The notes under the pieces: model-generated | Seen by the model: the letters and a program-made list of their open reading frames with translations, nothing else | The model's database searches: none | What the model was told of the DNA's origin: nothing | NCBI RefSeq assembly: GCF_014207095.1 | Contig: NZ_JACHBG010000001.1 | Location: forward strand, 62,001 to 126,000 | Source of the DNA: Martinezella lusitana | GTDB taxonomy: Bacteria; Pseudomonadota; Alphaproteobacteria; Rhizobiales; Rhizobiaceae | Reading direction: 5' to 3' | Length of the DNA stretch: 64,000 nucleotides | Part shown: piece after piece, positions 49,891 to 55,899 of the stretch | How the letters are laid out: the number at the start of each line of letters is the position of its first letter | How positions within the stretch are numbered: the first letter of the stretch is position 1 | Translations under genes and position numbers: made by a program

Positions 49891-51355
49891 TATCGATCCG
49901 ACAGCACTTGCAGTCTTCATCTTCTTTCTGGCGCTCGTGACCGTCATGGGCTTCGTGGCCGCCCGCTGGCGCCGGCCGAAGACCCTTGCCCATATCGACG
50001 AGTGGGGCCTTGGCGGCCGCACCTTCGGCACCTGGATCACCTGGTTCCTCGTCGGGGGTGACTTCTACACGGCCTATACCGTGATCGCCGTACCGGCACT
50101 GGTCTACACGGTCGGCGCTTACGGCTTTTTCGCGCTGCCCTATACGATCGTCGTCTACCCCTTCGTCTTCATGGTCATGCCGCTGCTGTGGCGGCGCGCG
50201 AAGGATCATGGCTACGTCACGGCAGGCGATGTCGTGCACGGCCAATACGGCTCCCGTGCGCTCGAACTGGCGGTTGCGCTTACCGGGGTCATCGCGACCA
50301 TGCCCTATATCGCTCTGCAGCTCGTCGGCATGACGGCGGTGTTCAAGGCTCTCGGGCTTCACGGTGAATTGCCGCTCGCCGTCGCCTTCATCATCCTGGC
50401 GCTCTACACCTACTCTGCAGGCCTTCGTGCGCCGGCGCTGATCGCCTTCGTCAAAGACATCATGATCTATATCGTTGTCATTGCCGCCATTGCGCTCATC
50501 CCGGCCAAACTCGGCGGTTATGCCAATGTCTTTGCCGCGGCCGATGCGGATTTCAAGGCCAAGGGAGCGGGCAGTCTGCTGCTTGGCGGCAACCAGTATG
50601 TCGCCTATGCGACCCTGGCGCTCGGCTCGGCGCTTGCGGCCTTCATGTATCCGCATACGCTCACCGGCATCTTCGCCTCCAACAGCGGCAACACCATTCG
50701 CAAGAATGCCGTGCTACTGCCGGCCTATACGCTGCTGCTCGGTCTGCTGGCCTTGCTCGGCTACATGGGCCACGCGGCAAACCTGAAGCTGGACAGCGCT
50801 AATGATGTCGTCCCGGCCCTGTTCCAGAACTTGTTCTCAAGCTGGTTTGCCGGCTTTGCCTTTGCGGCAATCGCCATCGGCGCGCTCGTCCCTGCCGCCG
50901 TGATGAGCATCGGCGCTGCCAACCTCTTCACCCGTAACTTCTGGAAGGCCTATATCGATCCGCAGGTTTCCGATGCCGGCGAGGCAAAGGTCGCCAAGAT
51001 GACCTCGCTCATCGTCAAAATCGGCGCGCTTCTCGTCATCATTTTCCTGCCGACGCAATTTGCACTCGATCTGCAGCTTTTAGGCGGGATCTGGATATTG
51101 CAAACCCTGCCGGCCCTGGTCTTCGGCCTTTATACCAAATGGTTCCGGGCGCCTGCGCTGCTGGCCGGCTGGTTCGTCGGCTTCTTCGGCGGCACCTACC
51201 TTGTCTGGGATGCCGGCTGGAAGCCGCTGCATATGGTTCCCCTCGGAGATGCCGGTTTCACGGCCTATACGGGGCTTTTGGCGCTGGCGGCAAACATCGT
51301 CGTTGCCGTCATCCTCAATGCAGTCATGCCGGCACGCGCCACCGCGCGCGCCTGA
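49880..51355 (+). CDS. mctP: monocarboxylate uptake permease MctP (SSS family)
   Basis: This 491-residue sodium/solute symporter family protein has about 13 membrane helices. HIDEWGLGGRTFGTWITWFLVGGDFYTAYTVIAVPALVY and GALVPAAVMSIGAANLFTRNFW are family signatures. The length and the DUF3311 partner fit MctP of Rhizobium leguminosarum, which takes up lactate, pyruvate, propionate and alanine. The MctSR two-component regulator reported for that gene is not in this window. A hairpin with T-rich tail follows the gene. Confidence 0.85.
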   Translation: MTTDIDPTALAVFIFFLALVTVMGFVAARWRRPKTLAHIDEWGLGGRTFGTWITWFLVGGDFYTAYTVIAVPALVYTVGAYGFFALPYTIVVYPFVFMVMPLLWRRAKDHGYVTAGDVVHGQYGSRALELAVALTGVIATMPYIALQLVGMTAVFKALGLHGELPLAVAFIILALYTYSAGLRAPALIAFVKDIMIYIVVIAAIALIPAKLGGYANVFAAADADFKAKGAGSLLLGGNQYVAYATLALGSALAAFMYPHTLTGIFASNSGNTIRKNAVLLPAYTLLLGLLALLGYMGHAANLKLDSANDVVPALFQNLFSSWFAGFAFAAIAIGALVPAAVMSIGAANLFTRNFWKAYIDPQVSDAGEAKVAKMTSLIVKIGALLVIIFLPTQFALDLQLLGGIWILQTLPALVFGLYTKWFRAPALLAGWFVGFFGGTYLVWDAGWKPLHMVPLGDAGFTAYTGLLALAANIVVAVILNAVMPARATARA

Positions 51356-51373
51356 TACGCGCAACACCCTATC

Positions 51374-51403
51374 GACCGCTGGCGGAAACGTCCGCGGTCT
51401 TTC
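51374..51403 (+). terminator. weak hairpin after mctP
   Basis: GACC (51374-51377) and GCGGA (51382-51386) pair with TCCGC and GGTC (51391-51399) around an AACG loop, with a bulge on the 5' side. TTTCT follows. It lies 19 bases after the mctP stop and may be its terminator; the stronger hairpin at 51508-51552 could also serve that role. Confidence 0.5.
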
Positions 51404-51466
51404 TATGTGCCGCGCGCGTTGTTTCCTCTTCCTTTCCTTGGAAAAAACGCCTATGAACCGGCGGCT

Positions 51467-51529
51467 ATGACCCAATTTCGGCTGAGCCTATCGATACGAA
51501 TTATTGGCCCGGCCTTCCGCGCGCTTTAA
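51467..51529 (+). CDS. candidate Ile-rich leader peptide upstream of ileS
   Basis: This 20-codon frame begins MTQFRLSLSIRII and has three Ile codons (ATA, ATT, ATT) at 51494-51505, followed by GPAFRAL and TAA at 51527-51529. The Ile codons end 2 bases before the left arm of a strong terminator (51508-51519), and the stop lies in its loop. Its ATG overlaps the stop of a 5-codon frame (ATG at 51453). No strong ribosome site is present (GGCGG lies close before it). This fits an attenuator leader that senses charged tRNA-Ile, but the evidence is only positional. Confidence 0.4.
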   Translation: MTQFRLSLSIRIIGPAFRAL

Positions 51530-51552
51530 GCTGCCGGAAGGTCCGGGTTTTT
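51508..51552 (+). terminator. intrinsic terminator/attenuator in the ileS leader
   Basis: CCCGGCCTTCCG (51508-51519) pairs with CGGAAGG-T-CCGGG (51535-51547) over 12 base pairs with one bulged T, and TTTTT follows at 51548-51552. It ends about 100 bases before the ileS start. It may end mctP transcription or, together with the Ile-rich frame it overlaps, regulate read-through into ileS. Confidence 0.75.
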
Positions 51553-51652
51553 GGCGCCCGCTCCCAGGGCGCTTTCCGCCGCCGAAAAATCCCCATATGG
51601 CTGCGCTTTTCAAGCGCAAGACGCCCGAGACACCGAGGCAATTGTCAGAACT

Positions 51653-54538
51653 ATGACCGATACCACCGAAAAGATGGACTATTCCAAGACCCTTTACCTG
51701 CCGGAAACTGATTTTCCGATGCGCGCCGGCCTGCCGCAAAAGGAGCCGGAGCTGGTGGGCCGCTGGCAGCAGATGGACCTCTACAAAAAGCTGCGCGCCT
51801 CCGCCGCCGGCCGTGAGAAGTTCGTCCTGCATGACGGCCCTCCCTATGCAAACGGCCACATCCATATCGGCCACGCGCTTAACAAGATCCTGAAGGACGT
51901 CATCACCCGCTCATTCCAGATGCGCGGCTATGACAGCAATTACGTTCCGGGCTGGGACTGCCACGGCCTGCCGATCGAGTGGAAGATCGAGGAAAAGTAT
52001 CGCGAGAAGGGCAAGAACAAGGACGAGGTTCCGGTGAACGAGTTTCGCCAGGAATGCCGCGACTTTGCCGCCGGCTGGATCAAGATCCAGTCCGAGGAGT
52101 TCAAGCGCCTCGGCATCGTCGGCGATTTCGACAATCCCTATCTCACCATGAACTTCCATGCGGAATCCCGCATCGCCGGCGAGCTTTTGAAGATCGCCCG
52201 TACCGGCCAGCTTTACCGTGGCTCCAAGCCGGTCATGTGGTCGGTGGTCGAGCGCACCGCGCTCGCCGAAGCCGAAGTCGAATATGCCGATGTCGAGAGC
52301 GACATGATCTGGGTTAAGTTCCCGGTGGCCGAAGGCTCTGCACATCTTGCCGGCGCCTTCGTCGTCATCTGGACGACGACCCCTTGGACGATCCCCGGCA
52401 ACCGTGCGATCGCCTATTCGTCGCGCGTGTCCTACGGGCTTTACGAAGTTACGGAAGCCGCCAACGATTTCGGCCCGCGCCCCGGCGAGAAGCTGATCTT
52501 CGCCGATAAGCTTGCGGAAGAATCCTTCGCCAAGGCAAAACTGCAGTACAAGCGTCTGGCCGATGTCTCTGCCGACGATCTGGCTGCTATCACCTGCGCG
52601 CATCCGCTCGCCTCTCTCGGCTACGACTTCAAGGTGCCGCTGCTCGATGGCGATCACGTCACCGACGATGCTGGTACGGGCTTCGTGCACACCGCACCGA
52701 GCCACGGTCGCGAGGACTTTGACGCCTGGATGTCGCATGCGCGTGATCTCGAAAAGCGCGGTATCTCGGCCACCATCCCGTTCCCGGTCGATGACGCCGG
52801 CTTCTATACGGCCGACGCTCCCGGCTTCGAGGGTGGCCGCGTCATGGACGACAACGGCAAGAAGGGCAACGCCAACGACATAGTCATCAAGGCGCTGATC
52901 GAGACGAACACGCTCTTTGCGCGCGGCAGGCTGAAGCATTCCTACCCGCATTCCTGGCGCTCGAAGAAGCCGGTCATCTTCCGCAATACGCCGCAGTGGT
53001 TCGTCTATATGGACAAGGACTTCGATGACGGCTCGACGCTGCGTAGTCGTGCCCTGAAGGCGATCGACGACACCCGCTTCGTACCGGCTGCCGGCCAGAA
53101 CCGTCTGCGCGCCATGATCGAGCAGCGCCCGGATTGGGTCCTTTCGCGCCAGCGCGCCTGGGGCGTGCCGATCGCGATCTTCGTCGATGAGCAGGGCAAG
53201 ATCCTGCAGGACGACGACGTCAATGCCCGCGTCCTCGAAGCCTTCGAAAAGGAAGGGGCTGATGCCTGGTTTGCCGAAGGTGCTCGCGAGCGCTTCCTCG
53301 GCGCGAAGGCCAACGAGCCCTGGACGCAGGTCATGGACATTCTCGACGTCTGGTTCGACTCGGGCTCGACCCACACCTTTACCCTGGAGGACCGCCCGGA
53401 TCTGAAATGGCCGGCCGATCTCTATCTCGAAGGCTCCGACCAGCATCGCGGCTGGTTCCATTCGTCGCTGCTCGAAAGTGCGGCGACGCGTGGCCGCGCG
53501 CCCTATGATGCCGTCCTCACCCATGGTTTCACCATGGACGAGAAGGGCGAAAAGATGTCGAAGTCCAAGGGCAATGTCACGTCGCCGCAGGAAGTGATGA
53601 AGGATGCCGGCGCTGATATTCTGCGCCTCTGGGTCATGACCTCGGACTATGCCGAAGACCTCCGCGTCGGCAAAGCCATCATCCAGACCAATGTCGACGC
53701 CTATCGCAAGCTGCGCAACACCATCCGCTGGATGCTCGGCACGCTGGCGCACGACAAGGGTGAGGTCATCGCCTATGCCGATATGCCGGAGCTAGAGCAG
53801 CTGATGCTGCACCGTCTTGCCGAGCTCGACGAGCTGGTGCGCGAAAGTTACGACGCCTTCGACTTCAAGCGCATCGCCCGCGCCCTGATCGATTTCGCCA
53901 ATGTCGAGCTGTCGGCCTTCTACTTCGATGTCCGCAAGGACGCGCTCTACTGCGATGCGCCATCGAGCCTGCGCCGCCGCGCCTCGCTCGCCGTCATCCG
54001 CACGATCTTCGACTGCATGGTGACGTGGCTGGCGCCGATGCTGCCGTTCACGACGGAAGAGGCATGGCTGTCGCGCAATCCGTCGGCTGTTTCCGTGCAT
54101 CTCGAGCAGTTCGTGACCGTTCCTTCCGAATGGAAGAACGAAGCGCTCGCCGAGAAGTGGAAGACAATCCGCGCTGTGCGCAGCGTCGTTACCGGCGCGC
54201 TTGAAATCGAGCGCAAGGACAAGCGGATCGGCTCCTCGCTGGAAGCCGCCCCGGTCGTCTATGTCGCCGATCCTGAGCTGTTGAAGGCGCTTGAAGGGCA
54301 GGATTTCTCGGAAATCTGCATCACGTCGAGCATCACCATCGAGAGCGGCGAAGGCCCGGCGGATGCATTCCGTCTCGACGATGCCGCCAAGGTCAGCGTG
54401 CTTCCGAAGCTTGCCGAAGGCCGCAAATGTGCCCGTTCGTGGCGCATCACGACCGACGTCGGCTCAGACCCGGAATACCCGGATGTCTCGGCGCGTGACG
54501 CTTTGGCGCTGCGCGAACTCGCTACAGCATCGGCCTGA
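51653..54538 (+). CDS. ileS: isoleucine--tRNA ligase
   Basis: This 961-residue class I synthetase charges tRNA-Ile and edits misactivated valine. The HIGH motif is [10 protein letters not shown] near residue 68, and KMSKS is at residue 634 ([10 protein letters not shown]). The CP1 editing domain (about residues 200-410) has [15 protein letters not shown] and [16 protein letters not shown]. The C-terminus lacks the zinc-binding Cys cluster of E. coli IleRS. The ATG at 51653 ([23 protein letters not shown]) is chosen; the frame open back to 51551 reads through the leader terminator. The leader suggests regulation by attenuation. A RIME-like element follows the gene. Confidence 0.97.
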
Positions 54539-55440: not shown

Positions 55441-55899
55441 TCAGTCTTCGGAGCGTTTCGCTTGAAAGAAGCGTCTCAGAATTTCGGCGGAACTAATCTC
55501 GCCGAGGCCGGAATAGACCTCCGGCGCATGATGGCAAGTTGGTTGCTGATAGAATCGCACGCCATTGTCGACACCGCCACCCTTCGGATCCTCGGCGCCA
55601 TAGTAAAGACGGCGGATGCGCGCGAACGAAATGGCCGCGGCGCACATGGTGCAGGGCTCCAGCGTGACATAGAGATCGGCGCCTGCAAGCCGCTCCTGGC
55701 TGAGCTCTTCGCAGGCCAGGCGGATGGCGACGATTTCGGCATGGGCGGTGACGTCATTGAGTTCGCGGGTGCGATTGCCGGCCCTGGCGATGATCTTGCC
55801 GTCGAGGACGACGACGGCACCGATCGGCACTTCGCCACGCTCTCCGGCACTGCGCGCTTCGGCGAGTGCAAGCTCCATGAAATGATTTGTAGCCGCCAT
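55441..55899 (-). CDS. tadA: tRNA-specific adenosine deaminase TadA
   Basis: This 152-residue deaminase converts A34 to inosine in tRNA-Arg(ACG). The zinc site is THAEIVAI (His53, catalytic Glu55) with EPCTMCAAA (Cys83, Cys86). The family block FARIRRLYYGAEDPKGGGVDNG follows. It is cytoplasmic and usually essential. It is divergent from the rluB-type gene, with 72 bases between, and both products modify RNA. Confidence 0.93.
   Translation of the reverse strand: MAATNHFMELALAEARSAGERGEVPIGAVVVLDGKIIARAGNRTRELNDVTAHAEIVAIRLACEELSQERLAGADLYVTLEPCTMCAAAISFARIRRLYYGAEDPKGGGVDNGVRFYQQPTCHHAPEVYSGLGEISSAEILRRFFQAKRSED

Follow-up and report, generated by a model that had tools for sequence, protein, structure and literature searches.

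The window, by which we mean the whole stretch of 64,000 nucleotides analysed here, carries on its forward strand the gene ileS for isoleucine--tRNA ligase (51653-54538; NCBIfam TIGR00392, 808 bits at a cut-off of 621), and in front of this presumably controlled gene, on the same strand, a leader reading frame of 20 codons, MTQFRLSLSIRIIGPAFRAL and a stop codon, can be read at 51467-51529. Its isoleucine codons are ATA at 51494-51496 and ATT at 51500-51502 and 51503-51505. The middle one belongs to what we call the box, CGA-ATT-A (51497-51503), i.e. the arginine codon CGA, the isoleucine codon ATT as putative specifier, and a following A, and a four-base spacer (51504-51507) leads from it to the foot of a hairpin of 12 pairs with one bulge. 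The left arm (51508-51519) is made of the foot CCCGG (51508-51512) and the upper stem CCTTCCG, the right arm (51535-51547) of the upper stem CGGAAGG, the bulged T51542 and the foot CCGGG (51543-51547); the stop codon of the leader (51527-51529) sits in the loop, and a run TTTTT follows at 51548-51552, which together with the hairpin is terminator-like in this genus. The frame, its three isoleucine codons, the arms, the T run and the position of the stop codon had all been named in the original prediction, and all were confirmed in the window sequence. A separate hairpin, probably the terminator of mctP itself, lies directly 3' of that gene at about 51374-51397 on the same strand.

Taken alone, the window is weak evidence for such an element. 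At least three isoleucines within five codons occur in 3 of its 588 short ATG frames, the ileS leader frame included, and, as to the fold, the stretch 51506-51552 reaches -30.1 kcal/mol and the 121-nt leader folds 1.6 sd better than its shuffles, 14 of 200 of which do at least as well. We regard the element as more than chance because it is conserved across genomes. As a separate observation, a tadA-like gene, assigned by eye, is found about 1 kb past ileS (55441-55899, reverse strand); its product would be a tRNA adenosine deaminase, which we take to be required for the reading of CGA codons, and the proximity is probably a coincidence.

For the comparison, regions upstream of ileS were picked by the position of ileS, with no use of the motif for the choice, from 29 further genomes of the genus (of 147 with ileS), from 90 family genomes, that of the window being one, and from 60 genera elsewhere in the order, among the matches listed. 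The core, defined as CGAATTA-NNN-GCCCGG with at least 11 of 13 bases, was present in 29/29 genus, 90/90 family and 35/60 order regions, the remaining 25 of the order being below the threshold, and the reverse strands of these 179 regions nowhere came up to 11 of 13 bases. Of twelve additional family genomes six have the element and six lack it, the latter with sizes of 1.1-2.0 Mb, which makes 96 of 102 family genomes in total, the 102 coming from 147 in the family that have ileS. In small family genomes (L368-L374 and L220, 1.1-2.0 Mb) the element looks as if decaying, and in one of them, L374, the box is altered to CGA-ATG-A.

A covariance model made from 36 leaders matched 117 of 297 order genomes (E 0.05), with at least four weak matches (G297, G301, G420, G542) not adjoining ileS, and a model from 73 leaders matched 92 of 337 genomes of the class (E 0.02). 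A pattern scan of named genomes returned at least 118 stretches, and among the 80 matches listed 75 are labelled alphaproteobacterial; 62 of the 80 precede ileS, six precede a gene for an ACT-domain protein (below, the ACT gene), and 12 are without assignment, five of these being chance (records labelled otherwise), six lying at the edge of a stretch, and one being L326 of Pseudovibrio exalbescens. The latter (core at 297) has an ATT box, and neither ileS nor an ACT gene follows in the 7.7 kb downstream. Named carriers of the element before ileS include Rhizobium, Agrobacterium pusense, Mesorhizobium, Bosea, Methylobacterium, Roseibium, Roseovarius and Paracoccus, three Caulobacterales records (L260, L291, L310) also have the box before ileS, and in Azospirillum soli it is the ACT gene that the element precedes. 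Within the genome of the window the ileS site is the only good match of the model, the next one having E = 1.1; the pattern CGANNNANNNGCCCGG has 37 matches there versus 24 for the reversed control, and one further match carries CGAATTA (L427). In other genera the sequence further upstream differs and the element stays with ileS. Judged by these comparisons, the ileS leader element is real and widespread in Alphaproteobacteria; the original prediction had considered it within Rhizobiales, where it is indeed present, but the order is not its limit.

The frame that runs from the ATG through the core is open in 89 of 90 family and 33 of 35 order leaders, i.e. in 122 of 125 and in spite of changes in leader length, versus 3 and 10 of 90 and 3 and 3 of 35 for the two other frames. 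One exception has an intact core and a TGA two codons before it (L220, one of the small genomes mentioned above), another has no in-frame ATG (L126), and the third has TAA directly after ATT (L142). All seven bases of CGAATTA agree in 29/29 genus, 89/90 family and 34/35 order cores, and exact patterns for box versions with CGC, CGG, CGT, AGA, AGG, ATC or ATA had no hit in the 179 regions. Codon usage in seven genes of the window shows 4 CGA among 266 arginine codons and 20 ATT among 148 isoleucine codons. Wherever CGAATTA has CCCGG no more than 20 bases away (145 occurrences), the distance between box and foot is four bases; ten further occurrences are without CCCGG in that range. Among the 125 family and order cores, 123 have a codon for I, T, S or M after ATT, and in the core peptide R and I are fixed and P is nearly fixed, the residue before P being G, C, R, S, V, I or A. 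The leader body is hypervariable. The pairs of the hairpin foot are invariant or nearly so and the upper stem covaries, a sign that the original prediction had named as support: 6 of 10 pairs change on both sides, with 71 such cells versus 14.2 in shuffles in an alignment fitted to the hairpin model, and sliding the arms lowers the counts. RNAalifold on 36 leaders predicted this helix only and no mutually exclusive antiterminator hairpin, in agreement with the earlier remark that a clear antiterminator is lacking.

The conserved signal is the CGA-ATT-A box four bases before the foot CCCGG...CCGGG. Of the conserved isoleucine codons expected before the hairpin, one at a fixed distance held up, and the run of three did not. 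The run was rejected as the signal, many leaders of the order and class having just the isoleucine of the box (e.g. L110, L133, L145). Isoleucine sensing alone does not account for a nearly invariant CGA or for the equally constant A that follows the codon.

Isoleucine is nevertheless in excess in the leader peptides outside the box. It was counted between the ATG and CGA and compared with base-shuffled leaders, one family and one order leader without ATG being omitted; the shuffle tests treat leaders as unrelated, i.e. kinship is uncorrected in all of these figures. For ileS leaders we obtained 130 isoleucines versus 42.7 expected in 89 family, 38 versus 11.0 in 34 order, 84 versus 25.3 in 62 named and 27 versus 5.9 in 14 class leaders, with none of 500 shuffles as high in any set. 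In all four sets isoleucine is the residue most in excess, being three- to fourfold over-represented. Leaders of the ACT gene gave 11 versus 3.6 in 12 class leaders, where methionine is slightly higher by z, and 3 versus 1.3, not significant, in five named ones. A leader of the marine type reads, for example, MTRMMAIIIRITCPAL up to its stop codon (L317, Donghicola).

The strongest evidence for how the element may be read comes from the swap of the box codon with the gene behind it. The downstream gene was read at 57 of the 121 class matches listed, and it is ileS at 26 sites, ribF and then ileS at one, the ACT gene at 21, leuA at five and a kinase-like gene at two; two further sites are not elements. 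The box codon is CTT at five of five leuA sites and ATT at the ileS sites, and of the 21 ACT sites 19 have ATT, one a tandem of CTT and GTT boxes (G614) and one CGA-CTC-ATT-A (L393). The exact CTT form occurs in 6 of 337 class genomes, five times before leuA and once in G614, whose tandem has a like in G744. All seven CTT leaders without a GTT box, coming from five families, precede leuA, including two found by the model, in one of which the box ends in C instead of A (G743) and in the other the foot is one base off (G679). Three leuA fragments were identified by NCBIfam as 2-isopropylmalate synthase, with fragment scores below the whole-protein cut-offs, and the remaining ones by the DLRDGNQ motif. 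In eight leuA leaders, one of them from the genome of the window, leucine was counted 23 times versus 8.5 expected (0 of 2000 shuffles as high), and isoleucine 4 times versus 5.0. The leader from the window's genome belongs to a leuA paralogue; it reads MSVRELLSIALRLSGGRRD up to the stop codon, its CGACTTA lies 107 bases upstream of the leuA match, and its hairpin is of another kind. A blind scan for NNT in the box position matched in 48 of 210 genomes, and the 69 matches listed comprise 32 ATT, 4 CTT, 2 GTT and 31 over ten other codons; as CTT and GTT are not above the background codons there (at most 6 each), the weight of these forms rests on gene context. The leucine and valine forms of the CGA-NTT-A box were seen before leuA and ACT genes, and the window has the whole arrangement of CGA-NTT-A, four-base spacer and hairpin, in frame with an ATG.

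The box was not found at every branched-chain gene. Among 30 leuA loci it is in frame at four, one more (L480) has CGACTTA without an in-frame ATG, and at the other 25 no in-frame box was found, four of these, read by eye, having a leader with a run of leucines. Leaders of the acetohydroxyacid synthase (AHAS) large subunit (ilvI-like) were considered as further members; at 29 loci no in-frame box was found, and 17 show a run-type leader.

Several variants were met beside the regular sites. A second CGACTTA is found further down leuA leaders, before a different hairpin (L471-L473, L401, L404, L398), and two ATT boxes 180-200 bases apart stand before one ACT gene in three genomes (L232-L234; G746, G618, G843). 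The leader of L393 (G610), beginning MRVSREPSVVVVRLITGPVSLG, precedes an ACT gene and has, along with CGA-CTC-ATT-A for the plain box, a run of valine codons. ATT-box leaders precede a P-loop kinase-like gene at L382 and L406 (cores at 138; G618, G863), and the one such gene tested had no match in NCBIfam; the two kinase-like genes and the gene of L326, all behind ATT boxes, have no known link to isoleucine. At L394 (G641) the leader stands before ribF, and ileS follows 1.4 kb downstream of the core; the site L248 lies before ileS.

The ACT gene encodes a product of about 90 residues that has no confident family match; the profile by which more copies were recognised was built from the first 11. 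A PDB sequence search was weak, with the small subunit of AHAS III as the best hit (E 0.18). The AlphaFold model has the order beta-alpha-beta-beta-alpha-beta with a mean pLDDT of 88, and this predicted fold matches ACT domains in the PDB, that of Rel first and IlvN, the AHAS small subunit, next. The protein may have a regulatory role in branched-chain metabolism.

As to the start of the transcript, the window has a -10-like hexamer TATGAA, 15 to 10 bases before the leader ATG (51452-51457, forward strand), and a putative -35-like region CCTCTTCCTTTC (51425-51436, forward strand); a T-rich block about 35 bases before the ATG is conserved in the 29 genus and 89 family leaders. TANRNN starting 10-17 bases before the ATG is present in 29/29 genus, 85/89 family, 22/34 order and 53/61 named ileS leaders, and a Shine-Dalgarno-like sequence in 0/29, 8/89, 4/34 and 11/61 of them, respectively. 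The hexamer suggests that the transcript starts at or beside the leader ATG, i.e. that the mRNA is leaderless. The mapped start of PileS in Methylorubrum extorquens DM4, which belongs to the same order, as given in the accessible text, shows TAGAAG, seven bases and then A, 150 nt before ileS (PMC9320726), and Methylobacterium haplocladii (L284) reads TAGAAGcgcaccATG, by analogy with which the Methylorubrum start would coincide with the leader ATG. For this relative, at least, ileS transcription would then not begin downstream of the hairpin, a possibility under which the original prediction would have failed.

We propose that the ileS leader is a ribosome-mediated attenuator which acts by direct occlusion and has the box codon as its specifier, and we give this reading a probability of roughly 0.78. 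An isoleucine-sensing attenuator had been suggested from the window, and the maintained frame, the fixed isoleucine codon, the covariation, the isoleucine excess and the swap to CTT before leuA all argue for it. Transcription would begin at or beside the leader ATG, as the mapped start in a relative supports, and the 20-codon frame would be translated by a ribosome trailing the RNA polymerase. When charged tRNA-Ile is scarce, this ribosome would wait with its P site on CGA and its A site on ATT, and its leading edge would cover the foot CCCGG, so that the hairpin would stay open and transcription would continue into ileS. When it is plentiful, the ribosome would pass, reach the stop codon in the loop and leave, and the hairpin would close; in Rhizobium the U-tract would then end transcription. 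A competing antiterminator would not be required. The specifier would be ATT before ileS and the ACT gene, CTT before leuA, and, for another ACT gene, CTT together with GTT.

On its leading side a ribosome shields about 15-16 bases. With CGA in the P site the foot starts 11 bases past the first base of the P-site codon, so its five bases would be just covered, and this geometry of box and foot fits direct occlusion. The earlier proposal that a stall at the isoleucine codons covers the left arm can be kept for the box codon only, since a stall further upstream, e.g. at the ATA at 51494, would leave the foot free; strong starvation could then even reverse the sign of the response. It also counts against the occlusion model that a ribosome at the stop codon would cover the stem too until it is released. 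In the Salmonella his leader CGA is a slowly translated codon, according to the part of the source concerned with it (PMC4046918), and may likewise make the box the slowest step, which would probably give the ribosome its sensitivity at this place.

Most doubt concerns the output step. At least four T in the eight bases after the foot are found in 26/29 genus, 43/84 family, 3/30 order and 13/62 named ileS leaders, those without a clear foot being omitted from the counts, and outside the family T is mildly enriched after the foot. As the U-tract is mostly absent outside the family, intrinsic termination cannot be the general output, and termination at the hairpin seems plausible to us only near Rhizobium. 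The leader could sense isoleucine by translation and, outside and perhaps within Rhizobium, have its effect by Rho-dependent termination, by processing of the RNA or by the stability of the mRNA: most order and named leaders lack the U-tract yet have box, frame and foot, and CGAAUUA beside a stem resembles what we take to be a site of RNase E. The T-rich 26 of 29 genus leaders have just what terminators need, however, and the fixed spacing fits occlusion, so we hold this alternative for quite possible, at distinctly less than even odds. In another explanation CGAAUUA would be the seed of a trans-acting RNA, the terminated leader serving as a small RNA, or a site for a protein, and the frame would be secondary; seven fixed bases, both wobble positions included, 5' of a terminator-like hairpin would suit this, and rnTrpL of Sinorhizobium, as far as the accessible text describes it, is a precedent (PMC10117765). 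It is unlikely to our mind, given that the frame is kept through changes of leader length, that the isoleucine enrichment falls outside the motif, and that the first base of the middle codon becomes C or G with the gene, which is unexpected for a common seed. Pairing of CGAAUUA with 16S rRNA was also considered, on what we presume to be the complementary sequence.

The fixed R and I and nearly fixed P would agree as well with an arrest peptide, nascent R-I-x-x-P stalling the ribosome regardless of tRNA charging. Selection on the peptide would permit synonymous codons for R and I, none of which were found, the residue before P varies, and I is exchanged for L or V along with the gene, which makes such arrest very improbable. 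Hardly credible, finally, is the simpler alternative raised at the outset, that the hairpin merely terminates mctP and the isoleucine codons are chance. mctP does lie upstream on the same strand, but it has its own hairpin, a promoter-like box stands between it and the ileS leader, and the comparative data, with an element that keeps to ileS in genera whose further upstream sequence is another one, contradict it.

The best reading of the ileS element, as we see it, would be ribosome-mediated attenuation in a variant form whose specifier is a branched-chain codon. Going further, we somewhat favour the view that Alphaproteobacteria share a family of attenuators that each read a single codon: a slow CGA would hold the ribosome over the foot and NTT alone would set the residue that is sensed, ATT standing for isoleucine, CTT for leucine and GTT for valine, so that one base could re-address the switch from ileS to leuA or to the ACT gene similar to the AHAS small subunit. 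If true, this would be a simple modular switch for branched-chain charging across the class, including plant symbionts and Rhodobacteraceae, and would explain the control of ileS in bacteria where no T-box has been found at this gene. It would also allow one to test cleanly how the sensitivity of the ribosome is tuned by codon context, here CGA ahead of a wobble-read NTT; a single base should re-address the sensor, and the near-invariant CGA and following A are a constraint open to direct test.

Our searches of an open-access full-text library gave no description of the box or of an ileS attenuator in Alphaproteobacteria; the standard survey, Vitreschak et al. 2004, may mention one. What is already known is a small leader CDS before ileS in Caulobacter crescentus, CCNA_03934 of a ribosome-profiling map, which in the accessible part of that paper serves only as a negative control, with no mechanism, motif or family stated (PMC4117421). 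In Rhizobiaceae, trpL/rnTrpL of Sinorhizobium likewise combines a leaderless leader frame and an attenuator RNA; unlike the ileS leader it concerns tryptophan, and its trans-acting RNA and peptide are known, to go by the sections of the source dealing with them (PMC10117765). Synthetase genes with codons for their own amino acid in a translated leader are exemplified by the attenuators of E. coli pheST and Streptomyces leuS and trpS (PMC1262725, in part), but those are of the classical type with antiterminators (leuS of Streptomyces) and belong to other amino acids and other taxa. With the classical branched-chain attenuators, E. coli ilvGMEDA and leuABCD, as outlined in the available text (PMC6123439), the ileS leader shares a short frame of cognate codons, to which the conservation of the frame, the isoleucine excess and the leucine of the leuA leaders point here, followed by a hairpin that is terminator-like at least in the genus. 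Unlike them it needs no run of cognate codons, a CGA-NTT-A box supplying the one fixed codon; a conserved antiterminator was not found in it, and it is probably leaderless. Run-type leaders exist in Rhizobium as well, namely MKNSIILIVVGRRMGRMV up to the stop codon before the AHAS large-subunit gene (L526, G000) and, before leuA of the main type, ...TSLLLLGLTRG... and ...LTSLLLLGLTRGCRVL up to the stop codon (four loci read; L502, L503, L483, L488). Rfam had no T-box match in the window at 51300-51700 up to E = 1 and no match at gathering score in nine related loci; a T-box or other Rfam family was rejected, the window having given one chance snoRNA match below gathering score. In a T-box the tRNA to be sensed is set by a single specifier codon. 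T-boxes have ileS among their targets, including the translational ileS T-boxes of Actinobacteria, as far as the accessible text goes (PMC1262725). The one-codon family proposed here would be alike in its specifier codon, but its reader would be the translating ribosome, as the conserved open frame suggests, and not a directly bound uncharged tRNA.
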